Shown piece by piece: positions 5,099 through 57,983 of a stretch of DNA of 64,000 nt. Below the pieces are notes generated by a model that had not been told where the DNA came from, did not search any database, and was given only the letters and a program-made list of their open reading frames with translations. The translations under genes and the position numbers were made by a program. The DNA lies in contig NW_023601433.1 in the NCBI RefSeq assembly GCF_014898055.3, positions 20,387,641 to 20,451,640 on the forward strand, in the 5' to 3' direction. Within the stretch, counting starts at the first letter, position 1. The number at the start of each line of letters is the position of its first letter. Source of the DNA: Talpa occidentalis (Eukaryota; Chordata; Mammalia; Eulipotyphla; Talpidae).

Positions 5099-5100
5099 GG

Positions 5101-13095: not shown

Positions 13096-13577
13096 ACATC
13101 TAGTTCAACAAAATAATGCTCCATGCACAACCACATCAATTTTCCTGGCTATCATTGCCATCTTGGCGACTCAATCCACGCCTGTAAAGTCGGCCCATTT
13201 TTGGGCTTATGTACCCGAGCCGCCTTTTCTGCATCCCGTTCCCTGGACTGAAAATTCTGCCATAAAAGTTTACATCAATGACACTAACCTCCTTGGTGGG
13301 TTAGCTGATTTTCACCCTGAACATATGGTTTCTTCCCCTATTGATTATGAGGGTTTGTCTGATGACCCTCCACTCTGTGTCTTTGCTAACTCTGTATCCC
13401 TTCCTGGTTGTATGATGCTACACTATGTTTCTATGCTCACTGATGCACCACCTCGTACCCCTCCGGAGAACCACCACACGGACAACAGAGATCGTGTTGT
13501 CTGGGGTTTGACGTTTATGGCCTTGGACCAACTGACGGCAGACAATGAAATCCGCACCTTCGCCTCACCATCCTTTA
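12860..13577 (+). pseudogene. env: Env N-terminal part, truncated by satellite (provirus B)
   Basis: It overlaps pol in a different frame. An arginine-rich N-terminal stretch ([22 protein letters not shown]) resembles the Rec/Rem nuclear localisation region of class II Envs. A hydrophobic signal sequence (SIFLAIIAILA) follows, then SU starting FWAYVPEPPFLHPVPW. Similarity to the Env of C ends at about 13577, where satellite DNA starts. The ORF then runs on meaninglessly to 13738. Most SU and all of TM are missing. Confidence 0.87.
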
Positions 13578-16500
13578 GCCAGGGACAAGCGGCGACCGCG
13601 GCCTCTTCCAGAACTGCATGCCTACAGGCCGGCGAAGAAGAAAGCCCCGGGCAAACCAGCACCACTCAAAGGGGAATTGTCTGCACCTGGCACAGCAGTA
13701 CTGATGAGACCCAGGCTCCGCCCCTGGGGGGAGCCTGACCCCGCCCACCCGACTCTGGTGCGCACAGGTGCACTTCCTAGGGCCACCCCTAGGGGGCGCT
13801 AGTGAGGGGGGGTTCGGGGACCCTCAGCCCACACGGAGCTGGGGCCAACCCTGTACCCATGGGGGTACGGGATTGTCCTCCCCCATGGGGAAACGGGGCA
13901 CTCTTCCCCTTCGCAGAAGCCCAAACCTTCCTCCCGGGGCACACCTGCACCCTACTCTCGCACTCACAGACCCAGCGGCGGGGCCGTGCACCCACAGACA
14001 CCTTAGACAGAGGGCCGGGGTCCCGGTCAGGGGACGGCAACCCCTGGAAGCCAGGGACAAGCGGCGAACGCGGCCTCTTCCAAAAGTGCAGACACACAGG
14101 CCGGTTACGGAAAAAAGCCCCGGGCAAGCAAGGACCACTCAAAGAGAAAGAGTCAGCACCTGGCCCAGCAGCGTTTGATGAGCCCCAGGCTCCGCCCCTG
14201 GCCGGAGCCTGACACTGCACTCCCGACTCTGGCTGTGCAAGGTGCACTTCCTAGGGCCGCCGCTAGGGGGCGCTGGTGATGGGATACAGGGACCATCGGT
14301 AACCACCAGGCTGGGGCCACCCCTGCACAATAGGGGCACGGGCTTGTCCTATCCCATTGGGGAACGGGGCCCTCTTCCCCTGCGCGGAAGCCCAAATCTT
14401 CCTTTCGGGGCACGCCTGCACACTCCTCTCGCACTCACAGCCCCAGCGGCGGGGCCGTGCGCCCGCAGACGCCCTACATGGAGGGCCGGGGTCCCGGTCA
14501 CGGGAGGTCACCCACTGGAAGCCAGGGAGAAGCGGCGACCGCGGCCTCTTCGAAAACTGCAGGCACACAGGCCGGTTACAAAAAAAGCCCCGGGCAAGCC
14601 AAGACCAGTCAAAGGGTAAGTGTCCGCACCTGGCCCAGCAGGCTGATGAGCCCCAGGCTCTGCCCCTGGCCGGAGCCTGACCCCGCCCACCCGACTCTGG
14701 CTGCGCACAGGTTCACTTCCTAGGGTCGCCGCTAGGGGGCACTGGTGAGGGGGTTCGGGGACACTCAGCCCCCACCGGGCTGGGGCCACCCCTGCACCCA
14801 TGGGGGTAGTGATTGTCCTCCCCCATGTGGGAACGGGGCCCTCTTCCCCTAAGTAGAAGCCCAAACCTTCCTCCCGGGACACGTCTGCACCGTACTCTCG
14901 CACTCACAGCCCCAGCGGCGGGGCCGTGCGCTCACAGAAGCCCTAGACGGAGGGCCGGGGTCCCGGTCAGGGGAGGGCACTCCCTGGAAGCCAGGGACAA
15001 GCGGCCACCGCGGCCTCTTCCAAAAATGCAGGCACACAGGCCGGGGCGGAAAAAAGCCCCGGGCAAGCCAGCACCACTCAAAGGGGAAGAGTCCGCACCT
15101 GGCCCAGCAGCGCTGATGAGCCCCATGCACCGCCCCTGGCAAGAGCCTGACCCCACCCAACCGAATCTGGCTGCGCACAGGTGCATGTCCTAGGGCCGCC
15201 GTTAGGGGGCGCTGGTGAGGAGGTTCGGGTACCCTCACCCCCACTGGGTTGGGGCCACCCCTGCACCCATGAGTGTATGGGATTGTCCTCCCCCATGGGG
15301 GAACGGGGCCCTCTTCCCCTTCTCGGAATCCCAAACCTTCCTCCCGGGGCACTCCTGCACCCTCCTCTCGCACTCACAGCGCCAACGGCGGGGCCGAGTG
15401 CCCGCAGACGCCCTAGGAGGTGGGCCAGGGTCCCGGTCAGGGGAGGGCACCCCATGGAAGCCATGGACAAGCGGTGACCGCTGCCTCTTCCAAAACTGCA
15501 GGCACACAGTCCGGCGCGGAAAAAAGCCACGGACAAGCCAGCACCACTGAAAGGGGAAGAGTCCGCACCTGAGCCAGCAGTGCTGATGAGCCCCAGGATC
15601 CGCCCCTGGGGGGAGCCTGACCGCGCACACCTGACTCTGGCTGCGCACAATTGCTCTTCCTAGTGCCGCCGCTAGGGGACGCTGGTGAGGGGTTTCAGGA
15701 CCCTCAGCCCCCACCGGGCTGGGGCCACCCCTGCACCCATAGCGGTACGGGATTGTCCTCCCCCATGGGGGAACGGGGCCCTCTTCCCCTTCGCAGAAGC
15801 CCAAAATTCCTCCCTGGGCACGCCTGCACCCTCCTCTCGCACTCACAGCCCCAGCGGCGGGGCTGTGCGCCCGCAGAAGCCCTAGAGGGAGGGCCGGGTC
15901 CTGGTTAGGGGAGGGCACTCCCTGGAAGCCAGGGACAAGCGTCGACCGCGGCCTCTTCCAAAACTGCAGGCACACAGGCAAGCACGGAAAAAAGCCCCGG
16001 GCAAGCCAGCACCACACAAAGGGAAGAGTCTGCACCTGGCACAGAAGCCCTGTGAGCCACGGGCTCCGCCCCTGGCCGGAGCCTGACCCCGCCCACCAGA
16101 ATCTGGCTGCGCACAGGTGCACATCCTAAGGCCTCCGCTAGGGGGCGCTGGTGAGGGGGGTCGGGGACCCTCAGCCCCCACCGGGCTGGGGCCACCCCTG
16201 CACCCATGGGGGTACAGGATTGTCCTCCCCATGGGGGAACGGGGCCCTCTTCCCCTTCGCGGAAGCCCAAACCTTCCTCCCGGGGCACCCCTGCACCCTC
16301 CTCTCGCACTCACAGAACCAGCGGCGGGGCCGTGTGCCCGCAGATGCCCTAGACGGAGGGCCGGGGTCCCTGTCAGGGGAGGGCAGCCCCTGAAAGCCAG
16401 GGACAAGCGGCGTCACGGCCTCTTCCCAAACAGCAGGCACACATGCCGGCTAGGAAAAAGCCACGGACAAGCCAGCACCACTCAAAGGGGAAGTGTCCGC

Positions 16501-19500
16501 ACCTGTCCCAGCAGCGCTGATGAGCCCCGGCTCCGCCACTGGCCGGAGCCTGACCCCGCCCACCCGAATCTGGCTGTGCACAGGTGCACTTCCTAGGGCC
16601 ACCGCTAGGGGGCGCTGGTGAGTGGGTACGGGGACCCTCAGCCTCCACGGGCCTGGGGCCACACCTGCACCCATGGGGGTACGGTTTTTGACCTCACGCA
16701 TGGGGGAACGGGGCCCTCTTCCCCATCGCGGAATCCCAAATCTTATTCCCGGTGTACGCCTGCACCCTGCTTTCGCACTCACAGCCACAGCGGCGGGGCC
16801 GTGCGCCCGCAGACGCCCTAGACCGAGGGCCATGGTCCCGGTCAGTGGAGGGCACCCTCTGGAAGCCAGGGACAAGCGGCGTGAGCAGCCTCGTCCAAAA
16901 CTGCATGCACACAGGCCGGCGCGGAAAATAGCCCCGGGCAAGCCAGCACCACTCAAAGGGGAAGAGTCCGCACCTGGCCCAGCAAGGCTTTTGAGCCCCA
17001 GGTTCCGCCCCTGGCCGGAGACTGACCCCGCCCACCTGACTCTAGCTGCGCACAGGTGCACTTCCTAGGGCCGCCGCTAGGGGGCGCAGGTGAGGGGGTT
17101 CGGGTCCCTCAGTTCCCACCGGGCTCGGGCCACCCCTGCACCCAGGGGGGTACGGGATTGTCCTCCCCCATGTGGGAACTGGTCCCTCATCCCCTTCGCG
17201 GAAGCCCAAACATTACTCCCGGGGCATGCCTGTACCCTCCTCTCGCACTCACAGCCCCAGCGGAGGGGCCGTGTGCCTGCAGACGCCCTAGACGAGGGCC
17301 AGGGTCCTGGTCAGGGGAGGGCACCCCCTGGAAGCCAGGTACAAGCGGCGACCGTGACGTCTTCCAAAACTGCAGGCACACAGGCCGGCGCGAAAAAAGC
17401 CCCGGGCAAGCCAGCACCACTCACAGGGGAAGAGTCCGCACATGGCCCAGCAGCGCTGATGAGCCCCAGGCTCTGCCCCTGGGGGGCGGCAGATCGCGCC
17501 CACCCGACTCTGGCTGCGCACAGGTGCACTTCCTAGGGCCGCCGCTAGGGGGCGCTTGTGAGGAGGTTCGGGGACCCTCAGCCCCCACCGGGCTGGGGCC
17601 ACACCTGCACCCATGGGGGTACGGGATTGTCCTCCCCCATGGGGGAATGGGGCCCACTACCCCTTCGCGGAAGCACAAACCTTCCTCCCGGGGCACGCCT
17701 GCACCCTTCTCTCTCACTGACAGACCCAGCGACAGGGCCGTGCGCCCGCAGACAACCTAGATGGAGGGCCGGGGTCCCGGTCAGGGGAAGGCACCCACTG
17801 GAAGCCAGGGACAAGGGGCGACCGCGGCCTCTTCCAAAACTGCAGGCACAGAGGCCGGCGCAGACAAAAGCCCCGGGCAAGCCAGCATCACTCAAAGGGG
17901 AAGAGACCGCACCTGGCCCAGCAGCGCTGATGAGCCCTAGGTCCGCCCCTGGCCGGTGTTTGACCCTCCACACCAGACTCTGGCTGCGCACAGGTGCACT
18001 TCCTAGGGCCGCCGCTAGGGGGCGCTGGTGAGAGGATTTGGGGACCCTCAGCCCCCACCGGGCAGGGGCCACCACTGCACCCATGGAGGTATGGATTTGT
18101 CCTCCCTCATGGGGGAACGGGGCCTTGTTCCCCTTCGCGGAAGCCGAAACCTTCCTCCCGGGGCACCACTGCGCCCTCATCTCGCACTCACAGCTCCAGC
18201 AGCGGGCCGTGCGCCCGGAGACGACCTAGACGGAGGGCCGGGTCCCCGTCAGGGGAGGGCACCCCCTGGAAGCCAGGGACAAGCGGCGACCGCGGCCTCT
18301 TCCCAAACTGCAGGCACACAGGCCTGCTCAGAAAAAAGCCCCGGGCCATACAGCACCACTCAAAGGGGAAGAGTCCGCACCTGGCCCAGCGGCGCTGATG
18401 AGCCCCAGGCTATGCCCCTGGTAGGAGCCTGACCCCTCCCACCTGATTCTGGCTGCGCACATTTGCACTTCCTATGGCCGCCGCGAGGAGGCCCTTCTGT
18501 TGGGGTTCAGGACCCTCAGGCCCCTCCAGGCTAGGGGGACTTCTGCACCCATGGGGGAACGGAACTATCCTCCCCCTAGTTGGAACAGGGCCCTCTTCCC
18601 CTGGGGAAGCCCTAACCTTCCACCCAAGGCACAATCACCTCCTCTCGCACTCACAACCCCAGCGGCGGGGCCGTGCGCCCGCAGATGCCCAAGACGGAGG
18701 GGCGGGGTCCCACTCAGGGGAGGGCACCCCCTGTAAGCCTGCGACAAACAGCGACCGCGGCCTCTTCTAAAACTGCACGCACACAGGCCGGCGCGGAAAA
18801 AAGCCCCGGGAAAGCCAGCACCACTCAAAGGGGAAGAGTCCTCACCGGTCCCAGCAGTGCTGCTGAGCCCCAGGCTCCGCCCCTGGCCGGAGCCTGACCC
18901 GCCCACCCAACTCTGGCTGCGCACAGGTGCACTTCTTAGGGCGGCCGCTAGGGGCTGCTGGTGAGGGGTTCGGGGACCCTCAGCCCCCTCGGGACTAGTG
19001 GGACATCTGCACCCATGGGGGTATGGAACTTTCCTCGGCATGTTGGAACGGGGCTGTCTTCCCCTCGGGGGAAGGCTAAATCATCCTCCCGGAGCATGCG
19101 TGCACACTCCACTCGCAATCACAGCCCCAGCAGCGGGGCCTTGCGCCACAGATGCCCTAGACCGAGGGCCGGGGTCCCTGTCAGTGGAGGCCATATCCTG
19201 TAAGCCAGGGACAAGCGGCTTCCCCGGCCACTTCCAAATATGCAGGCACACAGGCCGGCATGTAAAGACCCGGGCAGCCAACACCACTCAAAGGGGAAGA
19301 GTCATCACTGGCCCAGTAGCGCTGATGAGCCCTAGGCTCCGCCCCTGGCCGGAGCCTGACCCCACCACGCGACTCTTGCTGTGATCAGGTGCACTTCCTA
19401 GGGCCGCCGCAAGAGGGCGCTGGTGAGGGGTTTCGGGGACCCACAGCCCCCACCTGGCTGGGGCCACGCTGCACCCATGGGGCTCCGGGGTTGTCGTCCC

Positions 19501-20518
19501 CCATCGGGGAACGGGGCCCTCTTGCCCTTCGAGGAAGCCCAAATCTTCCTCCCGGGACACGCCTGGACCCTCCTCTCGCACTCACAGCCCCATCGGCGGG
19601 GCCGTGCGACTGCAGACGCCCTAGAGGAGGGCCGGGTTCCCTTTCAGGGTAGGGCAACCCCTGTAAGCCAGAGACCAGCGGCTACCGCGGCCTCTTCCCA
19701 AACTGCAGGCACACAGGCCGGCGAGGAAAGCCCCGAACATGCCAGCACCACTCAAAGGGGAAGAGTCCGCACCTGGCCTAGCATCGCTGATGAGCTCCAC
19801 CGTGGACTGAGCCTTATCCCGCCCACCAATCTCTGGCTGCGCATAGGTGCATTTCCTAGGGCCGCCGCTAGGCGGCGCTGGTTAGGGGGATCGGGGACCC
19901 TCAGACACTCGGGGCTAGGGGGACCTCTGCACCCATGGGGAAACGGAACTTTCCTCTCCCATGCGGGAACGGGTCCTTCTTCCCCTCGGGGGAAGCTCAA
20001 ACCATCCTCCTGAAGCACGCCAGCACCTTCCACACGAACTCACAGCCACAGCGGCGAGGCCATGCTCCTGCAGACGCCCTAGAAGTAGGGCCGCTGTCCC
20101 TGTCAGGGGAGGGCAAATCCTGTAAGCGAGAGACCAGCGGCTACCACGGCCTCTTCCAAAACTGCAGGCACACAGGCCGGCTCGCAAAGCCCCGGGCAAG
20201 ACAGCACCACTCAAAGGGGAAGAGTCCGCAGCTGGCACAGCATTGCTGATAAGACCCAGGTTCCGCACCTGGCCAGAACCTGACCCCGCCCACCCGACTC
20301 TGTCTGCGCACAGGTGCACTTCCTACGGCCGCCGCTAGGGGGCGCTGGTGAGGGGGTTCGGGGACGGTCAGCCCCCTCGGGGCTAGGGGAACCTCTGCAA
20401 CCATGGGGGAACGGAACTTTCTTCCCCCATGGGGGAGCGTTGCCCTCTTCCCCTCGGGGGAAGCCCGAACCCTCCTTGCGAGGCACACCAGCAACCTCCT
20501 CTCGCACTCACAGCCCCA
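13577..20518 (+). repeat. Macrosatellite array, segment 1 (about 15 units of about 468 bp)
   Basis: The unit recurs with core spacings of 458-474 bp. Landmarks in order are CACTTCCTAGGGCCGCCG, the AGGGGGCGCT core, GGGGACCCTCAGCCCC, CACCCATGGGGGTACGGGAT, CCCCCATGGGGGAACGGGG, a CTCGCACTCACAGCCCCAGC block, AAGCCAGGGACAAGCGGCGA, AAACTGCAGGCACACAGGCC, and GGCTCCGCCCCTGGCCGGAG. The unit is GC- and CpG-rich. Many long open frames occur on both strands and are repeat artefacts. At 18.5-20.5 kb several units belong to a divergent subtype. I do not recognise this satellite. Confidence 0.95.
13780..20350 (+). promoter_or_regulatory. CTCF-like motifs, one per unit, array segment 1
   Basis: CCGCTAGGGGGCGCTGG matches the vertebrate CTCF core (CCASYAGRKGGCRSY) at all but one position. 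Exact AGGGGGCGCT cores start at 13791, 14265, 15204, 16140, 16607, 17547, 18017 and 20337. Near variants lie at 14734, 15674, 17079, 19412 and 19870. The units at 18487 and 18950 have lost the motif. All face the same way. The motif contains CpGs, so binding could depend on methylation. Binding is inferred, not shown. Confidence 0.72.
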
Positions 20519-20705
20519 GCATTTCTTTTAATCATCTTTGTGGCAGCTTCTGGTGGTCATTATTTCTTGGCAGGCATTCGGCTTCTCTGCATCTTAGGTA
20601 GTTTGCTGTTCTCCCCTTGCGCGCATGGTTCCTTGCCCACGCCGGACCTCAGGGACCATGGCAACAGCCATTAGCCCTGAAGGTCACTGCAGGGGGGGTG
20701 CAGCA
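20519..20705 (-). repeat. 3' LTR fragment of provirus C
   Basis: Only the first 187 bp of U3 remain, matching 28660-28846. At 20518/20519 it joins satellite sequence ending CAGCCCCAGC, with a 2-3 bp microhomology (GC/AGC). Promoter, R and U5 are lost. Confidence 0.9.
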
Positions 20706-22792
20706 GGTCCCCCTTTGTTTTTAGAACGAAGTTGGTAAGCATACATGTCACACTGGATGCGGTAGATGGACCTGTGAAGTGAGCGGACACAGAAGGGAAC
20801 AAACAAACAGAGAAGCAGGACAAGTAGGGAAAGAACAAGGAAGGAGAGAACAAGATGATACCAGTGAGTAGGAGTTAAAGATTGGAGAGTGGAAGCCAGA
20901 GAATGGGCAAAGGAAGAGACTGAATTATCTAGGTGAGATTTACTGACAGCAGAGATTTCAGACTGAAGAGATGCAAGGTCATGAGAGAGGTCATTGTCAT
21001 GCCAGATGCCCAATAGGTGATGTTTAGTAAGATTCCAATGTAGAGAGGAATTATAACGTAAAGGTGTAACACAAATGAAACGAAACTGAACGTGGCAGCG
21101 AGTGGATAATTGCTGCTTAAGCAGCTGAACTTCATCTCCAATGGCAATAACAATTTCTTCCAGGGCATTTATCTTTCTTTCTAACTTGTAGTCAATGTCC
21201 CGCTGCACAGAGAGTGCCATGGTCACATTTTTGGTAAGGTCATTTACAAAAGAAGCTGTCTTAGCTTCCTGAATTAAAGCAACAGAGGAGGTAGCTTAGG
21301 AGGTAACCAGGGAAATTAGAGCAGCAATTCCTAGAATAAGGGTGGCAATAAAACGTTTAGGACGAAGAAGGGCATGTACTTCATCTAAAATTTGCATGGC
21401 AGTATTATCATACCAAGGCATATCATGTAAATCAACAGGTAACATAACATAGGGGGGTCTTTTAAGTAAGACCACCACAGGATATACACGAGCAAGAGAG
21501 GGGGTAATACAATTAGTAACAACACAGCCAGAACAATGTACAGAGTAAGAAGTCCCACGCAATTGAATGCGTGTAGCTGAGGCATTTCCCAGAAGTAGAG
21601 CGAAGGGATATTCAACGCAGGGACGCACTGGGATCTTAGCGGTTTCCTGTCCAGGTTGTTTGAAGTGTATATCATCAAAGGCAGCGGAAAGATGAAAGAG
21701 TTCAGGCTGAAAATAAGTCTTATTGTGATGATTAAAAGCATACATGGGTGGCACCCATCCAACAGAAAACTTTCTATAGGGAAGGGTTGGAACAGCAAAT
21801 GAAAAATCATATACAGTAAACTGAGACATAAGAGGGGATATAGGCATTGCTTGAGAAAAACCACAGTGCAGCCAAACTGGGTAGGAAATAAGGGAATCCC
21901 AGAATTGGTCAATATCCCGGTATTTTTGAACACAGTTGGGAAAAGGGGGAGTAAAGGGCGGTGAGGAGAAGGTGCGGATTCCATTGTCCGCCGTTAATTG
22001 GTCCAAGGCCATGAACGTTAAATCCCAGATGACACGGTCTTTGTGGTTTGTTCGATGGCTTTTAGGGGGAGTGCGAGGTGGTGCATCAGTGAGCATGAAA
22101 ACATAATGTAGCATCATACAACCAGGAAGGGATAGAGAGTTAGCATAGACACAAAGTGGAGGGCCATCAGATAGGCCCTCATAATCAATAGGGGAAGAAA
22201 CCATGTGTTCAGAGTGAAAATCAGCCAAGCCACCAAGAAGGTTGGTGTCATTAACATATACCTTTATGACAGAGTTTTCTGTCCAGGGAACCGGGTGCAG
22301 AAAAGGTGGTTCGGGAACGTAAGCCCAAAATTGGGCCGATTGTACAGGTGCGGACTGAGTTGTCAAAACGGCAATAATTGCCATGAAAATTGATAAGGCA
22401 GTGCGTGGAACATTATTTTGTTGCACCAGGTGTTCAGCCATCATCGCGAGGGCCTTTATATGACCCCAGGTTGGAAGGCGTTTGGGATGCTCCCGCAGGA
22501 GTTGAAGGCGACGCATCCTCCTCGTCAAACGCGCCATCTGCCGTCGGTGGCGGAGAGCCTGAGCTCGCGCTCGGGACCGGGACCGACGGGCAGTGGCGGA
22601 TGAGGCAGTCTGGAATCCAGACAGGGGAGTCGGCATCCTGAGGAAAAATATAAGCATAACCTCGCCCTGAGGCAAGCAGTAAATCTGGGCCTTTCCAGGC
22701 TCCAGTGAGGAGGACTTTCCATTTGACCTGAGGCAGATGGGAAACGTCAGTGTATCCCCAATGCCGCACCATAGGGGTGACACCTTTGTCAT
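20684..22792 (-). pseudogene. env: Env of provirus C, one in-frame stop
   Basis: About 703 codons in one frame are broken by a single stop at 21296-21298. The N-terminus overlaps pol; the true start is uncertain. It has an arginine-rich Rec/Rem-like stretch ([20 protein letters not shown]), a signal sequence, SU beginning FWAYVPEPPFLHP, an RPKR furin-type site and the fusion peptide FIATLILGIAAL. The stop falls just after the fusion peptide. TM follows with a heptad region, a CX-type loop, a membrane anchor and a C-terminus reading into U3. It is a betaretroviral (HML/MMTV-type) Env, unlike that of A. Confidence 0.88.
20706..20722 (-). promoter_or_regulatory. Polypurine tract of provirus C
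   Basis: On the minus strand AAAAACAAAGGGGGACC directly precedes the LTR start TGCTGCACC. It fixes the LTR boundary for the B/C/D family. Confidence 0.82.
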
Positions 22793-23415
22793 CCGAATTA
22801 AGATGATTAATTACAAACAGAGCATGTTGCAAAAGATGTTGAGTGGAATAAACGAGCTACATTTTGTAGACGGTCAAGTTGAGTTTTTAATATTTGGTGA
22901 GTTCTTTCTATAATACCTTGACCTTGTGGATTGTAAGGGATGCCAGTAACAAGAGCAATATGCCATTGGGCACAAAATGACTTAAATGATTTGGAAGTAT
23001 ATGCAGGAGCATTGTCAGTTTTTAATTTTAATGGCTTACCCAACACCGCAAAACAAGCAGTAAGGTGTTGAATAACATCCTTCACTGCCTCACCAGTACG
23101 GGCAGTGGCATGAACAGCATGTGAGAAAGTATCAACAGTTACATGAACAAAACAAAGTCTCCCAAAAGAGGGGACATGAGTTACATCCATTTGCCAGAGA
23201 ACATGAGGCTTTAAGCCTCGAGGATTAACTCCTAGTTTGGGAGGATGATGAACATCCGGACAAGAAGTACATTCATGAACAATTTGTGTGGCTTGTTCTC
23301 TAGTAATTTGAAAACGGTGACGCAGAGCATTAGCATTTTGGTGATGAAGAGCATGGCTCTCTTGAACCTGAGCCACCGTCATGACAGCTGGAGATTTTGT
23401 AAGTAAATCAGCCAT
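22434..23415 (-). pseudogene. pol: Integrase of provirus C, frameshifted
   Basis: The frame from 23415 holds the HHCC and DDE motifs ([27 protein letters not shown]). Near 22850 a 2-nt deletion relative to B (CGTTTATTCC versus CGTCTTTATTCC) shifts it. The C-terminal part ([11 protein letters not shown] to KGPRDDG) continues in another frame to 22434. Provirus D has the same 2-nt deletion. Confidence 0.87.
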
Positions 23416-23820
23416 CTGATTACCTAAGGACAGGGGTCCAGGCAGATTAGAATGACTTCTAATGTGGCCAATAAATAATTTTTGTGTTCTGGCTCATAGC
23501 AGTGTTTGTAAGTGAGCCGATAAGGAAGAAATATGGGATGACCCACATATCAAGGCAGTTTCAATTGCCGGAAACAATGAGACCACATATTTAGAATCAG
23601 AATATAAATTCAAAGGACATGTGTAATGCTCTAAAGCAAGTGTTACAGCAATGATTTCAGCCTGCTGAGCAGAAATTCCTTTAGAGAAACGCTGTATAGG
23701 AGGCTGATCAGGATGATATACTGCCGAAATTCCAGAGGAGGAACCGTCAGTAAAAACAACGGCAGCTCCATGCAGAGGCTGTGAGGAAATAATTCTTGGA
23801 AAATAAAAGCAGTTTCCGTC
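23416..23820 (-). pseudogene. pol: RNase H of provirus C, broken
   Basis: [16 protein letters not shown] and YSDSKYV motifs are recognisable. They are out of frame with RT because of an indel near 23815. A TGA near 23492 (CTATGAGCC, where B has CTACGAGCC) also interrupts the domain and is shared with D. Confidence 0.82.
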
Positions 23821-25890: not shown

Positions 25891-25927
25891 TTACGGGGCT
25901 GAGGGCTTGCCCCTCTGGAAGTTTTTT
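25880..25927 (-). promoter_or_regulatory. gag-pro frameshift signal of provirus C
   Basis: The minus strand has AAAAAAC (complement of 25921-25927), then GAGGGGC...GCCCC and the downstream GAGGG. The spacing and pairing are the same as in B. Confidence 0.8.
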
Positions 25928-28036: not shown

Positions 28037-28038
28037 CT

Positions 28039-43439: not shown

Positions 43440-43457
43440 CCCCACGTTCGGGCGCCA
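43440..43457 (-). other. Primer binding site of provirus E (tRNA-Lys type)
   Basis: TGGCGCCCGAACGTGGGG on the minus strand follows two bases after the 5' LTR. It looks like a Lys site with one extra base relative to the Lys1,2 version. Confidence 0.83.
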
Positions 43458-43459
43458 CC

Positions 43460-44264: not shown

Positions 44265-47200
44265 GCACCCCCTGGAAGCCAGGGACAAGTGGAGACTGCG
44301 GCCTCTTACAAAACTGCAGGCACACAGTCCGGTATGGAAAAATGCCCCAGGCAAGCCAGCACCACTCAAAGGGGAAGAGTACGCACCTATCCCAGCAGCG
44401 CTGATGAGCCCCAGGCTCTGCCCCTGGCCGAAGCCTGACCCCGCCCCCCCGACTCTGGCTGCGCACAGGTGCACTTCTTAGGGCCGCCGCACGGGGGCGA
44501 TGGTGAGGGCTTCCGGGTACCCTCAGCTCCCACCGGGCTGGGGCGAACCCTGCACCCATGGGAGTACGGTATTGTTCTCCCCCATTGGGGAACGCTGCCC
44601 TCTTCCCCTTCACGGAAGCCCATACCTTCCTCCTGGGGCACGCCTGCACCCTCCTCTAGCTCTCACAGACCCAGCGGCGGGGCCGTGCGCCCGCAGACGC
44701 CCTAGACGGAGGGCCGGTGTCCCGGTCAGGGGAGGGCACCCCCTGGAAGCCAGAGACAAGCGGCGACCAAGGCCTCTTCCAAAACTGCAGGCACACAGGT
44801 CGGCGCGGAAAATAGGCCCGGGCAAGCCAGCACCACTCAAAGGGGAAGAGTCCGCACCTGGCCCAGCTGCGCTGATGAGCCCTAGGCTCCACCCCTGGGG
44901 GGAGCCTGACCCCGCCCACCGGACTCTGGCTGCGCACAGGTGTACTTCTAGGGCCGCCACTAGGGCGCGCTGGTGAGGTCTTTTGGGGACCTTCAGCCCC
45001 CACCGGGGTGGGGCCACCCCTGCACCCATGGGGTTACGGGATTGTTCTCACCCATGGGGGAACGGGGCCCTGCTCCCCTTCGCGGAAGCACAAACCTTCC
45101 TCCCGGGGCACGCCTGCACACTCCTCTCGCACTCACAGCCCCAGCGTCGTGGCCGGGCATCAGCAGACGCCCTAGACGTAGGGCCTGGGTCTTGGTCAGG
45201 TGAGGGCACCCCCTGGAAGCCAAGGACCATCGGCTCCCGCGGCCTCTTACAATACTGCAGGCACACAGTCCAGCCTGGAAAAAAGCCCCGGGCAAGCCAC
45301 CACCTCTCAAAGGGGAAGAGTCCGCACCTGGCTCAGCAGCGCTTGAGGAGCCGCAGGCTCCGCCCTGGCCGGAGCCTTAACACGCTTACCCGACTCTGGC
45401 TGCGCACAACTACACTTTCTAGGGCTGCCGCTGGGGGGCGCAGGTAACGGTGTTCGGGGACCCTCAGCCCCCACCAGGATGGGGCCACCCCTGCACCCAT
45501 GGGGGTACGGGATTGTCCTCCCCCATGGGGGAACGGGGCCCTCTTCCGCTTCGCGGAAGCCCAAACCTTCCTCCCGGGGCACGCCTGCACCCTCCACTCG
45601 CACTCACAGCCCCAGCGGCGGGGCAGTGCGCCCGCAGACGCCCTAGACGGACGGTCCGGGTCCCGGTCAGGGGAGGGCACCCCCTGCAAGCCAGGGATAA
45701 ACAACGAGCATGGCCTCTTCCAAAAGCGCAAGCACACAGCCCGGCACGGGAAAAAAGCCCCGGGCAAGCCATCAGCACTCAAAAGGGAAGAGTCCCCACC
45801 TGGCCCATCAGTGCTGATGAGCCCCAGGCTCCGCCCCTGCCGGAGCGTGACCCCGCCCACCCCACTCTGGCTGCGCACAGGTGCACTTCCTAGGTCCGCC
45901 GCTATGGGGCCCTGGTGAGTGCTTTCGGGGACCCTCAGTCCCACTGGGCTGGGGCCACCCCTGCACCCATGTGGGTACGGGATTGTCCTCCCCCATGGGG
46001 GAACGGGGCCCTCGCCCCTTCGCGGAAGCCCAAACCTTCCTCCCAGGGCACGCCTGCAAACTCCTCTCGCTCTCACAGCCCCAGCGGCGGGGCCGTGTGC
46101 CCGCAGACGCCCTAGAAGGAGGGCCGGGTTCCCGGTCAGGGGAGGGCACCCCCTTTAAGCCAGGGAAAAGCGGCGACAGCGGCCTTTTCCAAAATGCAGG
46201 CACACAGGCTGGCGCGGAAAAAATGCCCGGGCAAGTAAGCACCACTCAAAGGGGAATAGTCCGCACCTGGCCCAGCAGCGCTGATGACCCCTAGGCTCCC
46301 CTACTGGCCGGAGCCTGACCCCCTCCAATCTGACTCTGGCTGCGCACAGGTGCACTTCCTAGGGCCGTCGCTAGGGGGCGCTGATGAGGGGTTCGGAGAC
46401 CCTGAGCCCCCACCGGGCTGGTGCCACACCTGCAACCATGGAAGTATGGGATTGTCCTCCCCCATGGGGTACCGGGGCCCTCTTCCCCTTCGCGGAAGCC
46501 CAAACCTTCCTCCCGGGGCACACCTGCACCCTCCTCTCGCACTCACAGCCCCAGCGGTGGGGCCGTGTGCCCGCAGACGCCCTAGACGGAGGGCCGGGTT
46601 CCCGGTCAGGGGAGGGCACCCCCTGGAAGCCAGGGACAAGCGGTGACTGCGGCCTCTTCCAAAACTGCAGGCACACAGGCCGGCACGGAAAAAAGCCCCG
46701 GGCAAGGCAGCACCACTCAAAGGGGAAGTGTCCGCACCTGGCCCAGCTTCGTTTGATGAGCCCCAGGATCGCCCCTGGCCGGAGTCTGACTCCGCCCATC
46801 CGACAATGGCTGCGCACAGAAGCAATTCCTAGGGCCGCCTCTAGGGGGCACTGGTAAGGGGGTCGGGGACCCTGGGCCCCACCGGGCTGGGGCCACCGCT
46901 GCACCCATGGTGGTAAGGGATTGTCCTCCCCCATGGGGGAACAGGGCCCTCTTCTCCTTCGCGGAAGCCCAAACTTTCGTCCCGGGGCACGCCTGCAACC
47001 TCCTCTCGCACGAACAACCCCAGAGGCGGGGCCGTGCGCCCGCAGACGCCCTTGACGCAAGGTCGGGTTCCCAGTCAGGGGAGGGCCCCATTCTGGAAGC
47101 CAGGGACAAGCGGCTACCAAGGCCTCTTCTAAAACTGCAGTCACACAGGCCGGCACGGAAAAAAGCCCCGGGCAATCAGCAGCACTCAAAGGGGAATAGT

Positions 47201-49003
47201 CCGCACCTGGCCAAGCAGTGCTGATGAGCCCCAGGCTCTGCCCCTGGCCAGAGACTGACCCCCCCCACTCCACTCTGGCTGCGCCTAGGTGCACTTCCTA
47301 TGGTCGCAGCTAGTGCGCGCTGGTGAGGGCTTCTGGGAACCCTCACCTCACACCTGGCTGGGGCCACCCCTGCACCCATGGGGGTACAGGATTGTCCTCC
47401 ACATGGGGGAACGGGGCCCTATTCCCATTCGCGGAAGCCCAAACCTTCCTCCTGGGGAATGCCTGCACCGTCCTCTCGCACTCACAGCCCCAGCGGCGGG
47501 GCCGTGCGCCTGCAGACGCCCTAGACGGAGGTCCATTGTCCCGGTTAGGGGAGGGCACCCCCTGGAAGCCAGGGACAAGTGGCGACCGTGGCCTCTTCCA
47601 AAACTGCAGGCACACAGGTCGGCTCGGAAAAAAGCCCCGCGCAAGCCAGCACCACTCAAAGGGGATGAGTCCGCACCTGGCCCAGCAGCGATGATGAACC
47701 CCAGGCTCCGCCCTGGGCCGGAGCTTGAGCCCGCCCACCCGAATCTGCTGCGCACAGGTGCACTTACTAGGGCCGTCGCTAGGGTGCGCTGGTGAGGGGT
47801 TTCGGGGACCCTCAGCACCCACGGGCCTGGGGCCACACTTGCACCCATGGGGGTACGGATTGTCTTCCCCCATGGGGGAACGGGGCTCTCTTCCCCTTCG
47901 CGGAAGCCCAAACCTTCATCCCGGGGCACTCTTGCACCCTACTCTCACACTCACAGCCCCAGCGGCGGAACCTTGCGCCTGCAGACGCCCTAGACGGAGG
48001 GCCGGGGTTCCGGTCAGGGGAGGGCACCCCCTGGAAGACAGGAAAAAGCGGCGACCGCGGCGTCTTAAAAAACTGCAGACACAGGCCGGCTCGGAAAAAA
48101 GCCATGGGCAATCCAGCCCCAGTCAAATGGGAAGAGTCTGCACCTGGCCCAGCAGCGCTGATGAGCCCAGGCTCCGCCCCTGGCCAGAGACTGACCCTTC
48201 CCACCCGAATCTGGCTGCGCACAGGTGCACTTCCTAGGGCCACCGCTAGGGGGCGCTGGTGAGGGGGTTCGGGGACCCTCAGCCCCCACCGGCCTGGGGC
48301 CACCCCTGCACCCATGGGGATAAGGGATTGTCCTCCGCCATGGGGAACGGGTCCCTCTTCCCCTTCGCGGAAGCGCAAACCTTCCTCCCGGGGCACGTCT
48401 GCATGCTCTTCCAGCACTCACAGCCCCAGCGGCGGGGCCCTGCGCCCGCCGACGCCCTAGACGGAGGGCCAGGGTCCCGGTCAGGGCAGGGCACCTCCTG
48501 GAAGCCAGGGACAAGTTGCAACCGCGGCCTCTTCCAAAAATGCAGGCACACAAGCCAGCGCGGTAAAAAGCCCCATGCAAACCAGCACCACTCAAAGGGG
48601 AAGAGTCCGCACCTGGCCCAGCATCCCTGATGAGTCCCAGGCTAAGCCCCCAGCCAGAGCCTGACCCCGCCCACCCGACTCTGGCTGTGCACAGGTGCAC
48701 TTACTAGGGCCGCCGCTAGGAGGCGCTGGCGAGGGGGTTCGGGGACCCTCAGCCTCCACGGGCCTGGGGCCACACCTGGGCCCATGGGGTTACGGGATTG
48801 TCCTCCCCCATGGGGGAACGGGGCACACTTCACCTTCGCGGAACCCCAAACCTTCCTCCCGGGGAACGCCTGCACCCTCCTCTCGCACTCACAGCACCAG
48901 CGAGGGGCCGTGCGCCTGCAGACGCCTTAGACGGAGGGCCGGGGTCCTGGTCAGGGGAGGGCACCACCAGGAAGCCAGGGACAAGCGGCGACCGCGGCCT
49001 CTT

Positions 49004-49335
49004 AAAAAACTGCAGGCAGGGCCTCCCTGGTGTCGCAGCGGTTGAGCGCTGGGTTGCGAAGCTGCCCGAGGCCTCTGCGGCACTGGTTCAATCCTCGGCT
49101 GCTCCCAGGCACTGGAGGAGGGTCCCACATGGCGCGCAGACCTCTCCTGTCGCCCGCTGCTCCCCTCAACAGTGTACTTCGGTCCTTCTGCCTGCTCTGG
49201 TTCCCGCTCTGGCTCTGGTGAATTCTCTCACCCTCCTGCGCTTCTGGCTGTACCCAGTGTATGTATAAACAAACAAACAAAAACTAACTAACTAAATAAA
49301 AACATGCCTCTATTAAAAAAAAAAAACTGCAGGCA
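49004..49335 (+). mobile_element. tRNA-derived SINE 2 in a satellite unit
   Basis: The body 49019-49320 is flanked by AAAAAACTGCAGGCA at 49004-49018 and 49321-49335. It is the same family as SINE 1. The A box is GTGTCGCAGCGGTTGAG and the B box GGTTCAATCCT. Confidence 0.92.
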
Positions 49336-52300
49336 CACAGGCCGGCTCGGAAAAAAGCCCTGGGCAAGCCAGCACCAGTCAAATGGGAAGAGTCCGCATC
49401 TGGCCCAGCAGCTTGATGAGCCCCAGGCTCAGTCCATGGCCGGAGCCTGACCCCGCCCAACCGACTCTGGCTGCGCACAGGTACAATTCCTAGGGCCGCC
49501 GCTAGGGGGAGCTGGCGATCGGGTTCCGGGACCCTCAGCCCCCACAGGGCTGGGTCCACCCCTGCACCCTTGGGGGTACGGGATTGTCATCTCCCATGTG
49601 GGAACGGGGCCCTCTACCCCTTCGCGGAAGCCCAAACCTTCCTCCCGGGGCAAGCCTGCTACCTCCTCTTGCACTCACAGCCCCAGCGGCGGGGTCGTGC
49701 GCCCGCAGATGCCCTAGACGGAAGGCCGGGGTCCAGGTCAGGGGAGGGCAACCCTGGAAGCCTGGGACATGCGGCGACCGCGGCCTCTTCCAAAACTGCA
49801 GGCACATAAGCCGGCGTGGAAAAAAGCCCCTAGCAAGCCAGCACCCCTCAAAGGGGAAGACTCAGCACCTGGCCCAGCAGCGCTGATGAGCCCCAGGATC
49901 CGCCCCTGGCCGGAGCCTGACCCCGCCCAACCGACTCTGGCTGCGCACATGTGCACTTCCTAGGGCCGCCGCTAGGGGGCGCTGGTGTTGGGGTTCGGGG
50001 ACCCTCAACCCCCACCGGGCTGGGGCCACCCCTGCACCCATGGGGGTAAGGGATTGTCCTATACCCTGGGGGAAAGGGCCCTCTTCCCCTTCGCGGAAGC
50101 CCAAAACTTACTCCCGGGGCATGCCTGCACCCTCCTCTCGCACTCACAACCCCAGCGGCGGGGCCGTGGGCCCTCAGACGCCCTAGACGGAGGGCCGGGG
50201 TCTTGGTCAGGGGAAGGCAACCCCTGGAAGCCGGGGACAAGAGGCGACCGCGGCCTCTTCCCAAACTGCAGGCACACAGGCCGGCGCGGAAAAAAGCCCC
50301 GGGCAAGCCATCACCACTCAAAGGGGAAGAGTCTGCATCTGGCCCAGCAGCGCTGGTGATCCCCAGGCTCCGCCCCTGGCCGGAGCCTGAACCCGCCCAC
50401 CCTACTCTGGCTGTGCAGAGGTGCACTTCCTAGAGACGCCGCTAGGGGGCGCTGGTGAGGGGTTTCGGGGTCCCACAACCCCCACCGTGCTCGGGCCACA
50501 CCTGCACCCATGGGGGTACGGGATTGTACTCCACCATGGGGAAACGGGTCCCTCATCCCCTTCGCGGAAGCCAAATCCTTTCTCCCGGGCACGCCTCTTC
50601 CCGCCTCTCGCACTCACAGCCCCAGCGGCGGGGCCGTGCGCCCTCAGATGCCCTAGACGGAGGGCCGGGGTCCTGGTCAGGGGAGGGCAACCCCTGGAAG
50701 CCAGGGACAAGCGGCGACCGCGAACTCTTCCAAAACTGCAGGCACACAGGCCGGCGCGGAAAAAAGCCCCGGGCATGCCAGCACCACTCCAAGAGGAAGA
50801 GTCCGCATCTGGCTCCTCATCGCTGATGATCCCCAGGCTCCGCCCCTGGCCGGATTCTTACCCTGCCCATCCGACTAAGCTGCGCACAGGTGCACTGTCA
50901 AGGGCCGCCGCTAGGGGGCGCTGGTGAGGGTATCGGGGACCCTCAGCCACAACAGGGCTGAGGCCACCCCTGCACCCATGGGGGTACGTGATTGTCCTCC
51001 CCCGTGGGGGAATGGGGCCCTCTTCCCCTTCGCGGAAGCCCAAACCCTCCCTGGGCACCACTGCGCCCTCCTCTCGCACTCACAGCCCTAGCGTCGGGTT
51101 GTGCGCCCGCAGAAGACCTAGACGGAGGGCCGGGGTCCGGTCATGGGAGGGCACCCCCTGGAAGCCGGGGACAAGCGGCGACCGCGGCCTCTTCCCAAAC
51201 TGCAGCCACACAGGCCGGCGTGGAAAAAAGCGCCGGGCAAGCCATCACCACTCAAAGGGTAAGAGTCTGCATCTGGCCCAGCAGCGCTGATGATCCCCAG
51301 GCTCCGGCCCTGGCCGGAGCCTGAACCCGCCCACCGGACTCTGGCTGTGCACAGGTGCACTAACTAGGGACGCCGCTAGGGGGCCCTGGTGAGGTGGTTC
51401 GGGAACCCTCAACCCCACCGGGCTGGGGTCACGCCTGCACACATGGGGGTATGGGATTGTCCTCCCCATGGGGGAACGGTGCCCTCTTACCCTTCAAGGA
51501 AGCCCAAACTTTCCTCCCGGGGCACGACTGCACCCTCCTCTCGCACTCACAGCACAAGCGGCGGGGCCGTGCGCCCGCAGACGACCTAGACGGAGGGCCG
51601 GTGTCCCGGTCAGGGGAGGGCACCCCCTGGAAGTAGGGACAAGCGGCGACCGCGGCCTCTCCAAACTGCAGGCACACAGGCAGGCGTTAATAAAAACCTT
51701 GGGCAAGCCAGCACCACTCAAAGAGGATGAGTCCGCACCTGGCCCAGCAGCTTGATGAACCCCAGTCTCCGCCCCTAGCCGGAGCCTGACCCCGCCCACC
51801 CGACTCTGGGTGCGCACAGGTGCACTTATTAGGGCCGCCGCTAGGGGGCGCTGGTGAATGGGTTCGGGGAACCTTAGCCCCCACCGGGCTGGGGCCACCC
51901 CTGCACCCATGGGTGTACGGGACTGTCCTCCCGAATGGGGGAACGGGGCCCTCCTCCCGTTCGCGGAAGCCAAAACATTCATCCCGTTGCACGCCTGCAC
52001 CCTCCTCTCGCTCTCACAGCCCCAGCGGCGGGACCGTGGGCCCGAAGACGCGCTAGACGGAGGACCGGGGTCCCGGTCAGGGGAGGGCATCCCCTGGAAG
52101 CAAGGGACAAGCGGCGACCACGGACTCTTTCAAAACTACAGGCACACAGACCGCCACGGAAAAAAGCCCCGGGCAAGCCAGCACCACTCAAAGGGGAAGA
52201 GTCCACACCTGGCCCAGCAGCGCTGATGAGCCCAAGGCTCCGCCCCTGGCCAGAGCCTGTCCCCGCCCACCCGAATCTGGCTGCGCACAGGTGCACTTCC

Positions 52301-54429
52301 TAGGGCCGCCGCTCGGGTATGCTGGTGAGGGGGTTTGGGGACCCTCAGCCCCCGTGGCCTAGGGCCACCCCTGCACCCATGGGTGTACAGGACTGTCCTC
52401 CCGAATGGGGGAACGGGGCCCTCCTCCCGTTCGCGGAAGCCAAAACATTCATCCCGTTGCACGCCTGCACCCTCCTCTCGCTCTCACAGCCCCAGCGGCG
52501 GGACCGTGGGCCCGAAGACGCGCTAGACGGAGGGCCGGGGTCCCGGTCAGGGGAGGACACCCCCTGGAAGCCAGGGAAAAGCGGCCAACGCGGCCTCTTC
52601 CAAAACAGCAGGCACACAGTCCGGAACGGAAAAAAGCCCCGGACAAGCCAGCACCACACAAAGGGGAAGTGTCCGCACCTGGCCAAGCAGTGATGAAGAG
52701 CCCAAAGCTCCGCCCCTGGCCACAGACTGACCCTGCCCACGCGACTCTGGCTGCGCAAAGTGCACTTCCTAGGGCCGCCGCTCTGGGGCGCTGGAGAGGG
52801 GGTTCAGTTTCCCACAGCCCCCACCGGCCTGGAGCCACCCCTGCACCCATGGGGGTACGGGATTCTACTCTCCCATGGGGGATCAGGGCCCTCTTCCTCG
52901 ACGCGGAATCGCAAACCTTCCTCCTGGGGCACACCTGCACCCTCCTCTCGCACTCACAGCCCCAACGGCGGGGCTGTGCACCTGCAGACGCCCTAGACGG
53001 AGGACCGGGGTCCCGGTCAGGGGAGCGCACACCCTGGAAGCCAGGGATAAGCAGCGACCACCGAGTCGTCCTAAACTGCAGAAACACATGCCGGCACGGA
53101 AAAAAGCTCTGGGCAAGCCACCTCCACTCAAAGGGGAATAGTCCGCAACTGGTCTTGCAGCGCTGATGAGCCCCAGGCTCCGTCCCTGGCCGGAGACTGA
53201 CCCTGTCCACCCGACTCTCGCTGCGCAAATGTCACTACATAGGGACGTCGCTAGGGGGCGCTGGTGAGGGGGTTCGGGGACCGTCAGCCCCCACCAGGAT
53301 GGGACCACCCCTGCACCCATGGGGGTACGGGATTGTCCACCGCCATGGGGGAACGGGGCCCTCTTCCCCTTCGCGGAAACCAAAATCTTCCTCCCGGGGA
53401 AACGACTGCACCCTCCTCTCGCACTCACAACCCCGGCAGCGGGGCCATGCGCCCGCAGACGCCCTAGATGGTGGCCCGGGGTCCCGGTCAGGGGAGGGTA
53501 CCCCCTGGAAGCCAGGGAGAAGCGGCAACCGGGGACTCTTCCAAAACTGCAGGCACATAGTCCGGCGCAGAATAAATCCCAGGGCAAGACAGCACCACTC
53601 AAAGGGGAAGAGTCCCCAACTGGCCCATCAGCGCTGGTAAGACCCAGGCTCCGCCCCTGGCGGGAGCCTGACCCCGCCCACCTGAATCTGGCTGTGCACA
53701 GATGCACTACTTAGGGCCGCCGCTAGGGGGCGCTGGTGAGGGGCCTGGGGACCCTCAGCCCCCACCGGCCTAGGGGGATATCTGCACCCATAGGGGTAAG
53801 GAACTTTCCTCCGCATGTGGGAACGGGGCTGTCTTCCCCTCGGGGGAAGGCTAAATCATCCTCCCGGGGCACGCGTGCACCCTCCACTCGCACTCACAGC
53901 CCCAGCGGCCGGGCCTTGCGCCCGCAGACGCCCTAGACCGAGGGTCGGTGTCCCTGTCAGTGGAAGCCACCCCCTGTAAGCCAGGGACAAGCGGAGACCC
54001 GGCCTCTTCCAAAAGTGCAGGCACACAGGCCGGCATGGAAAGACCCGGGCAGCCAGCACCACTCAAATGGGAAGAGTCATCACTGGCCCAACAGCGCTGA
54101 TGAGCCCTAGGCTGCGCCCCTGGCCGGAGCCTGACCCCACCCACCCGATTTGCTGCGAACAGGAGCACTTCTTAGGGCTGCCGCTAGGGGGCGCAGGTGA
54201 GGGGGTTCGCGGAACCTCATCCCCACCCGGGCTGGGAACACCCCTGAACCCATGGGTGTACCGGATTGTCCTCCCCCTTGGGGGAACGGGGACCTCATCC
54301 CCTTCGCGGAAGGCCAAACCTTCCTCCCGGGGCACGCCTGCACCGTCCTGTCACACTCACAGCCCCAGCGTAGGGGCCATGCGCCCGCAGACGGCCTAGA
54401 CGTAGGGCCGGGGTCCCGGTAAGGAGAGG

Positions 54430-54435
54430 GCACCC
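54430..54435. other. Paralogous empty site of provirus E
   Basis: A single GCACCC sits in a unit whose left flank matches 35.9-36.3 kb and whose right flank matches 44.3-45.0 kb. The distance to the left TSD (18093) minus that to the right TSD (10165) is 7928, exactly provirus plus one 6-bp duplication. Confidence 0.85.
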
Positions 54436-56347
54436 CCTGGAAGCCAGGGAAAGCGGAGACTGCGGCCTCTTACAAAACTGCAGGCACAAAGTCCGGTACG
54501 GAAAAATGCCCCGGGCAAGCCAGCACCACTCAAAGGGGAAGAGTACGCACCTGTCCCAGCAGCACTGATGAGCCCCAGGCTCCGCCCCTGGCTGGAGCCT
54601 AAGCCCGCCAACCCGACTCTGGCTGCGCACAGGTGCACTTCCTAGAGCCGCCGCCAGGGGGCGCTGGTGTTGTGGTTCGGGTACCCTCAGCGCCCAAAGG
54701 GTTGGGGCCAAACTTCACCCATGGGAGTACGGGATTGTCCTCCCCCATGGGGGAACGGTGCCCTCTACCCCTACGCGGAAGCCCAAACCTTCCTCCCGGG
54801 GCACGCCTGCACCCTCCTCTCGCACTCACAGCCCCAGCGGCAGGGCCGAGCGCCCGCAGACGCCCTAGACGGAGGGCCGGGGTCCCGGGCAGGGGTGGGG
54901 ACCACCTGGAAGCTAGGGACAAGCGGCGACCGCGACCTCTTCCAAAACTACAGGCCACAGTCGGGCGCGGAAAAATGCCCCGGGCAAGCCAGCACCACTC
55001 AAAGGGGAAGAGTCCGCACCTGGCCCAGCAGCGCTGATGAGCCCCAGGCTCCGCCCCTGAGTGGAGCCTGACCCCGCCCGCCGACTCTGGCTGCGCACAG
55101 GTGCAGTTCCTAGGTCTGCCGCTACGGGGCGCTTGTGAGTAGGTTCTGGTACCCTCATCCCCACCCGGGCAGGGAACACCCCTGCACCCAAGGGCGTACG
55201 GGATTGTCCTCCACCATGGGGGAACGGGGCCCTCATCCCCTTCTCGGAAGGCCAAACCTTCCTCCCGGGGCACGCCTGAACCCACCTCTCACACTCACAG
55301 AACCAGCGGCTGGGCCTTGCGCCCGCAGACGGCCTAGACGGAGGGCCGGGGTCCAGGTCAGGGGAGGGCACCCCCTGGAAGGCAGGTACAAGCTTCGACC
55401 CTGGCTACTTCCAAAACTGCTGGCACTCAGGCCGGCGCGGAAAAAAGCCCCGGGCAAGCCAGCACCACTCAAACGGGAAGAGTCCGCACCTGGCCCAGCA
55501 GCGCTGATGAGACCCAGGCTCCGCCCCTGACCGGAGCATGACCCCGCCCGCCGACGCTGGCTGCGCACAGGTGCAGTTCCTAGGTCCGCCGATAGGGGGC
55601 GCTGGTAAGGGGGTTCGGGGACCCTCAGCCCCCACCGGGCTGGGGTCACCCCTGCACCCATGGGGGTACGGGATTGTCCTCCCAGTTGGGGGAAAGGGGC
55701 CCTCTTCCCCTAAGCGGAAGTCCAAAACTTCCTCCCGGGGCACGCCTGCACCCTCCTATTGCACTCACAGCCCCAGCCGCGGGGCCGTGGGCCCGCAGAC
55801 GCCCTAGATGGAGGGCCAGGTCCCGGTCAGGGGAAGGCACCCCCTGGAAGCCAGGGACAAGCGGCTACAGCGGCCTCTTCCAAAACTGCAGGCCTACAGG
55901 CAATCGCGGACAAAGCCCCGAGCAACCCAGCACCACTCAAATGGGAAGAGTCCCCAACTGGCCCATCAGCGCTGGTAAGATCCAGGCTCCGCCCCTAGCC
56001 ATAGCCTGACCCCGCCCACCGGAATTTGGCTGCGCACAGGTGCATTTACTATGGCCGCCGCTAGGGGGCGCTGGTGAGGAGGTTCTGGGACCCTCAACCT
56101 CCACGGGCCAGGGGCCACACCTGAGCCCATGCGGTTACGGGATTGTCCTCCCCCATGGGGGAACGGGGCACACTTCACCTTCGCTGAAGCCGAAACTTCC
56201 TCCTGGTGCACGCCTGCACCCTCCTCTCGCACTCACAGCACCAGCGAGGGGCCGTGCGCCCGCAGACACCTTAGACGGAGGGCCGGGGTCCCGGTCAGGG
56301 GAGGGAACCACCTGGAAGCCAGGGACAAGCGGCGACCGCGGCCTCTT

Positions 56348-56675
56348 AAAAAACTGCAGGCAAGGCCTCCCTGGTGGCGCAGCGGTTGAGCGCTGGGTTG
56401 CGAAGCTGCCCGCGCCTCTGCGGCTCCGGTTCAACCCCGTGCTCCCCGGCCACGGAGGAGGGTTCCCACATGGCGCGCAGAACTCTCCTGCCGCCGCGCT
56501 GCTCCCCCTCACAGTGTACTTCGGTCCTTCTGCCTGCTCTGGTCCCCGCTCTGGATCTGGTGAATTCTCTCACCCTCCTGCGCTTCTGACTGTACCCAGT
56601 GCATGTATAAAAAAACAAACAAAAGCTAACTAAATAAATTAAAAAATGCCTCAATTAAAAAAAAAACTGCAGGCA
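56348..56675 (+). mobile_element. tRNA-derived SINE 3, duplicate of SINE 2
   Basis: The body 56363-56660 is flanked by the same AAAAAACTGCAGGCA at the same unit position as SINE 2. The flanking units match too (CAGGCTCAGTCCATGG, CACAGGGCTGGGTCCACC). It is therefore a duplicate of that insertion, not an independent event. Confidence 0.9.
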
Positions 56676-57309
56676 TACAGGCCGGCTCGGAAAAAAGCCC
56701 TGGGCAAGCCAGCACCAGTCACATGGGAAGAGTCCGCACCGGGCCCAGCTGCGCTGATGAGCCCCAGGCTCAGTCCATGGCCGGAGCCTGACCCCGCCCA
56801 ACAGACTCTGGCGGCGCACAGGTGCACTTCCTAGGGCCGCCGCTAGGGGGAGGTGGCGATTGGGTTCCGGGACCCTCAGCCCCCACAGGGCTGGGTCCAC
56901 CCCTGCACCAGTGGTACGGGATTGTCCTCCCCAATGTGGGAACGGGGCCCTCTACCCCTTCGCGGAAGCCCAAACCTTCCTCCCAGGGCACGCCTGCTAC
57001 CCTCCTCTCGCACTCCACTCACAGCCCCAGCGGCGGGCCGTGCGCCCGCAACGCCCTAGACGGAGGACCGGGTCCCGGTCAGGGGAAGGCACCCCCTGGA
57101 AGCCAGGGACAAGCGGCTACAGCGGCCTCTTACAAAACTGCAGGCACACAGGCCAGCGCGGAAAAAAGCCCGGGCAAGCCATCACCACTCAAAGGGGAGG
57201 AGTCTGCATCTGGCCCAGCAGCGCTGAGGATCCCCAGGCTCCGCCCCTGGCCGGAGCCTGACCCCGCCCACCCGACTCTGGCTGTGCACAGGTGCACTAA
57301 CTAGGGACG

Positions 57310-57981: not shown

Positions 57982-57983
57982 GG

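Follow-up and report, generated by a model that had tools for sequence, protein, structure and literature searches.

Human pericentric gamma-satellites are described in a review (PMC8122249, citing Kim et al. 2009) as carrying CTCF and Ikaros sites and allowing permissive chromatin, and a report on mouse cells finds CTCF phosphorylated at Ser224 to be enriched pericentrically at mitosis (PMC6361588). In an analysis of the composition of six bat genomes, internal peaks of CpG and binding sites are reported for Rhinolophus ferrumequinum scaffolds (PMC9264310). Here we analyze a tandem satellite of 470-bp units, most of which contain a CTCF-like motif, in a 64,000-nucleotide stretch of the genome of the mole Talpa occidentalis (hereafter, the window; contig C364:20387641-20451640, from an assembly of 2.075 Gb in 2034 contigs). 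We interpret it as a dispersed GC-rich satellite, probably pericentromeric, with inherited CTCF-type sites that are latent or occasional and gated by methylation, and assign this interpretation a probability of roughly 0.6.

Tandem Repeats Finder (TRF) detects the 470-bp period in four long arrays within the window. The 53 complete units are 459-472 bp long, 470 bp being the commonest length (16 of 53), and the 58 unit starts that we counted are close to the roughly 59 units, all in one orientation, of a preliminary description. That description had, however, taken 13577..57309 for a continuous macrosatellite, and this is not the case: proviruses and short interspersed nuclear elements (SINEs) split the repeat, about 27 kb (26.9 of 43.7 kb, the remainder being proviral and SINE-like), into five pieces, listed here with one example of the motif:

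13577..20520, plus strand: satellite block 1, about 14.8 units (TRF, unit anchors)
28847..36342, plus strand: satellite block 2, about 16 units (TRF, unit anchors)
44265..49018, plus strand: satellite block 3, about 10 units (TRF, unit anchors)
49323..56362, plus strand: satellite block 4, about 15 units (TRF, unit anchors)
56663..57309, plus strand: final satellite stretch, followed by a gap of Ns at 57310-57409 (self-comparison, N run)
14257..14275, plus strand: example of the CTCF-like 19-mer CCGCCGCTAGGGGGCGCTG, positions 211-229 of the consensus unit

The GC content is 65-68% in 2-kb windows of the arrays and 72% in the consensus unit. Most units fit the CTCF-type consensus at a fixed place, with G at one position where A is usual, as had been noted previously along with the CpG richness of the unit; the 19-mer includes three CpGs, one of them created by the unusual G. 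Scored with the CTCF matrix MA0139.1 (maximum 26.1 bits), the consensus 19-mer reaches 19.41 bits (p 1.7e-7 against a uniform and 1.3e-6 against a GC-rich background) and passes the usual matrix threshold of p 1e-4; the second- and third-best sites of the consensus unit score low, at 9.8 and 9.5 bits. In the comparison with shuffled units that the preliminary description had proposed, a site is found anywhere in the unit at p<=1e-4, 1e-5 and 1e-6 in 50, 38 and 26 of 57 units, respectively, versus 22.2, 3.2 and 0.35 units expected from dinucleotide shuffling. Within 80 bases round the homologous place, the best plus-strand site scores at least 10 bits in 43 and at least 13 bits in 38 of the 58 units. 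All 33 sites of at least 15 bits in the whole window are on the plus strand and within the arrays. The 27 exact AGGGGGCGCT cores counted by eye were recovered, all on the plus strand and none on the minus strand, and CCGCTAGGGGGCGCTGG occurs 17 times on the plus strand and not at all on the minus strand of the window. Thus, the motif is enriched far beyond chance. The units being paralogues, only one event counts as independent, namely a single founder with a single site, and a site as good as this arises in one consensus unit with a probability of 0.0018 (20000 dinucleotide shuffles).

The units of the window diverge in a star-like manner, with an identity of 0.841 between adjacent units and 0.838 over all pairs, and similar values within and between blocks. 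Given this divergence from one founder, the motif copies are mostly inherited. The history that we favor is that the founding unit would by chance have held a strong CTCF-type site, which amplification would have spread to every unit, after which the units would have diverged independently, leaving about two-thirds of the window units with a site predicted to be bindable when unmethylated.

An exact 17-mer pattern occurs 1073 times in the genome (618 forward, 455 reverse), and the same pattern read backward is absent from the genome. The first 100 of the 1073 matches, for which places by contig are listed, include 22 on C1 (12 at 2.31 Mb, 10 at 73.61-73.65 Mb), 45 on C2 (62.31-62.66 Mb), 9 on C184 (43.98-45.41 Mb), 2 on C93, 16 on C162 and at least 6 on C243. 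A whole-unit query (140 matches; 12 of 560 candidates scored) adds C364, C730, C795 (26.86, 31.13 and 31.61 Mb), C796 and C1208. The satellite is therefore present on at least five contigs longer than 90 Mb (C1, 155.7 Mb; C2, 107.0 Mb; C184, 103.4 Mb; C364, 90.9 Mb; C795, 153.2 Mb), with internal clusters on C2, C184, C364 and C795 and two clusters on C1. Internal clusters on long contigs are the pattern that would be expected of a pericentromeric satellite.

Locally, the sampled block round the window spans at least 20.372-20.466 Mb (loci L037 and L038 are satellite); no satellite was found in the samples at 20.352-20.357 and 20.481-20.486 Mb (none in L039-L042). Left of the window, L036 and L037 contain divergent plus-strand units of 77-78% identity, and right of it, L035 contains minus-strand units; L038 contains units on both strands together with a gap of 100 Ns that makes the order uncertain. 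The single orientation is thus only local, given the opposite-strand units beside the window.

Units in eight other loci (L017, L018, L020, L023, L024, L031, L033 and L036) average 78-80% identity to the window consensus. Over 471 model columns, the consensuses of L022 (C2) and L030 (C730) are the same as that of the window, and the consensus of L027 (C795) is 96.6% identical to it. One subfamily, 76-81% identical, forms trimers: in L017, L018, L023 and L024, the units are organized in 1.38-kb (1384-bp) higher-order repeats, the copies of which differ by 0.3-0.5% from their own consensus. In each trimer consensus, the motif is unchanged in one monomer, variant in another and lost to a run of G in the third; the variant motifs score 17.0-17.5 bits (12 of 20 loci scanned).

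Such homogeneous trimers raise the question of whether the family is a functional centromere satellite, with the trimers forming the kinetochore core and the window monomers its old flanks, as in alpha-satellite. The contrast between copies 0.3-0.5% from consensus in the trimers and about 16% divergence between window units fits this explanation, as do the clusters on long contigs, but the trimer array on C1 spans about 18 kb and is located 2.3 Mb away from the end of the contig. Furthermore, the CENP-B box, TTCGNNNNANNCGGG, has no match on either strand of the consensus or the window, the best site in the consensus agreeing at 6 of 9 fixed bases; some centromere satellites, though, need no CENP-B box. 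We consider a centromeric role unlikely.

Several observations weigh against the interpretation of the family as a pericentromeric satellite with inherited, methylation-gated sites. The second C1 cluster is 2.3 Mb from the contig end and the C795 blocks are spread over 4.8 Mb, and the assignment of the satellite to pericentromeres draws on a few long contigs and 100 of 1073 places. The rate of transitions at CpG is about 2.4 times that at other C and G (0.064 vs 0.027), so that heavy germline methylation of the units is neither obvious nor excluded. Finally, the motif is retained somewhat better than in a simulation (400 runs) that mutated it according to the divergence and the types of substitution of the individual unit. 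In the window, it has 1.53 mismatches vs 1.98 simulated (55 ungapped of 56 units), and outside the window, 1.41 vs 1.80 (147 ungapped of 168 units); the fraction of motifs with at least 13.14 bits is 0.709 vs 0.571 in the window (reached by 1.8% of the 400 runs) and 0.694 vs 0.611 outside it (reached by 1.0%). This retention leaves room for selection that is at most weak.

The excess over simulation would also suit a dedicated architectural repeat, whose dense, oriented CTCF sites would, like those of DXZ4, halt loop extrusion at the centres of chromosomes. Such a role is consistent with a strong site in most units, in one orientation within the window, and with the retention of all 19 of 19 motif bases in consensuses that are 76-84% identical (one monomer each of L017 and L023; L036 and L020). 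However, set against the unit's other 19-base windows, the motif shows ordinary conservation: it ranks 60th of 453 on family consensuses (12 consensuses) and 95th of 453 on the 8 divergent ones. Moreover, the motif is lost in one of the three trimer monomers, and the units occur in both orientations, even beside the window. We regard this role as distinctly unlikely. Among the 53 window units, the motif is at about the 81st percentile of 19-base windows; on single units it ranks 196th of 453 (near units) and 69th of 453 (divergent units), and after adjustment for base and CpG context, 84th and 32nd of 453, respectively. The idea that no part of the unit is better conserved than the motif was accordingly rejected, many other stretches being kept better. 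The best-kept 19-base windows are at consensus positions 83-112 and 153-176 and include CACCACTCAAAGGGGAAGAGTCC and the GC-box-like GGAGCCTGACCCCGCCCACC.

Under the interpretation that we prefer, the motif copies are most likely CTCF sites that lie within heterochromatin and are latent or occasionally used, with CpG methylation gating their use. CTCF binding is blocked when a core CpG is methylated, and the H19 control region is one place where sites contain such CpGs; by this route, we infer that the three CpGs of the 19-mer could gate binding. If the sites act, they may do so in a gamma-satellite-like fashion, holding patches of chromatin open in the pericentromere and acting as local stops for cohesin. 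A bolder extension, which we consider very unlikely, is that on several or perhaps most chromosomes, pericentromeric blocks of opposing orientation would carry many oriented, methylation-sensitive CTCF sites at a spacing of about 470 bp and would together form dense cohesin barriers across the genome. DNA methylation would switch these barriers, for instance in the germ line or the early embryo, and they would help to cluster or insulate centromeres. The motif might instead serve another zinc-finger protein, for instance CTCFL (BORIS), acting in the male germ line, or a silencer of the KRAB zinc-finger class, such that CTCF would be irrelevant. CTCFL recognizes much the same sequence as CTCF, and provirus-rich repeats are common targets of KRAB zinc-finger proteins, but CTCF is the simplest reader of the motif, and we consider its replacement by another protein highly improbable.

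The substitutions among the units are rich in transversions. The 56 window units show 876 transitions vs 1397 transversions, a ratio of about 0.6 (0.43 for singletons), and the ratio is 0.41-0.75 in each of the 18 other loci with at least six units. At non-CpG positions of 224 near units, there are 2154 transitions vs 4181 transversions. The changes go towards A or T, about as much by transition as by transversion. For human germline mutations, a transition/transversion ratio of 2.10 is reported (PMC13102968), and for human segmental duplications, 1.78 compared with 2.06 in unique DNA (PMC10172114). Among the control comparisons in the mole, two proviral comparisons about 13% apart have ratios of 1.84 and 2.28, proviral pairs of 82-96% identity mostly 1.15-3.3, and SINE-like copies elsewhere at least 1.7. 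Other controls are low: L1 pairs with 51:41 and 11:17 transitions to transversions, proviral pairs near 70% identity with about 0.6-1.2, one recent proviral pair with 37 transitions vs 62 transversions, and two SINE-like copies inside the array with 10 vs 14.

A random-like substitution spectrum is what an assembly artefact, with noisy or misjoined repeat units, could produce, and the N gaps, the inverted neighbours and a pair of recent proviral copies beside the gap fit this possibility as well. That pair differs by 38 indels, 29 of them of one base, with 51 transitions vs 67 transversions, and may include some noise. The trimers speak to the contrary: agreement among their copies is within 0.3-0.5%, and the transversion-rich spectrum recurs when their consensuses are compared with that of the window. 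Since these consensuses are nearly free of single-copy noise, base-calling noise cannot by itself account for the transversion excess. Further evidence against an artefact, which we regard as extremely improbable, comes from a clean 6-bp target duplication in the array and from colinear unit pairs that share 91-94% at a separation of 18.1 kb. The excess may point to error-prone copying during amplification; if general, transversion-rich divergence bears on how satellites get copied.

The other features of the window are insertions in and beside the satellite:

4812..13576, plus strand: retroviral stretch with Gag, reverse-transcriptase and integrase domains, ending at the array start
about 7634-10011: L1 piece interrupting the preceding retroviral stretch
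20521..28846, minus strand: retroviral stretch between blocks 1 and 2 (reverse-transcriptase domain at 23643-25121)
36343..44264, minus strand: younger provirus between blocks 2 and 3 (terminal repeats of about 805-814 bp, 99.4% identical)
49019..49322, plus strand: SINE-like insertion with an A-rich tail and a target duplication of unit sequence (AACTGCAGGCA)
56364..56662, plus strand: SINE-like insertion at the same unit position as that at 49019, 7.3 kb apart
57410..64000, plus strand: another copy of the stretch at 20521-28846 (97% identity), on the right side of the N gap

The younger provirus is flanked by a 6-bp duplication, GCACCC (36337-36342 and 44265-44270), and this clean target duplication indicates that it was inserted into a pre-existing array. 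The paired SINE-like insertions at one unit position are read as a local duplication; together with the 91-94% identity between the colinear units at 34008-35414 and 52096-53507, the shared position implies that local duplications happened. The stretch at 20521-28846, which has terminal direct repeats of about 186 bp that are 95% identical and which we read as betaretrovirus-like, is present in three copies in or beside the block (20521-28846, 57410-64000 and L039; 96-97% identical), suggesting that provirus and satellite were duplicated together. Within the 4812-13576 retroviral stretch, an L1-like reverse-transcriptase piece at 8043-10025 includes an open frame of 660 codons. A minus-strand element at 594-4754, with 345-bp terminal repeats that are 99.1% identical, encodes an open env frame of 462 amino acids (TLV_coat family) and a Gag_p10 domain. 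A tRNA gene scan detected no tRNA genes in the window.

If the sites are used, the family would offer a natural setting in which to test whether dense arrays of CTCF sites flanking centromeres halt cohesin and open up heterochromatin, the natural monomers with and without the motif serving as internal controls. Even if they are unused, the family clearly exemplifies a transcription-factor site made abundant by satellite amplification alone, which calls for caution with arguments from motif density.

Among the literature titles listed, none describes this family, which is weak evidence given that a unit sequence is not searchable as text. The family resembles DXZ4, as described in PMC6985041 and PMC8662614, in that CpG-rich units repeat in tandem with their CTCF-type sites facing one way, but, compared by description, the unit is 0.47 kb long rather than 3 kb (PMC6985041). 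Also unlike DXZ4, which is one X-linked locus, it forms blocks on C1, C2, C184, C364, C730, C795, C796 and small contigs, in both orientations; a single DXZ4-like architectural locus is ruled out by these copies on many contigs. Like the satellites described from centromeric and pericentromeric regions of the bats Artibeus lituratus and Carollia perspicillata (PMC12467311), this is a mammalian family, and one bat family has, by unit size, a 1388-bp unit close to the 1384-bp trimer; that family is, however, given as 57.3% A+T, whereas the one described here is GC-rich. Alpha-satellite higher-order repeats likewise combine young, homogeneous multimers with diverged monomers and keep a protein box in some monomers while losing it in others; the present family differs in being GC-rich, with a 470-bp unit and without a CENP-B box. 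By description rather than by sequence, it is likened to human gamma-satellite, as presented in the review cited at the outset: both are GC-rich tandem satellites in clusters of tens to hundreds of kilobases with CTCF recognition sites, the unit being 220 bp in gamma-satellite and 470 bp here.

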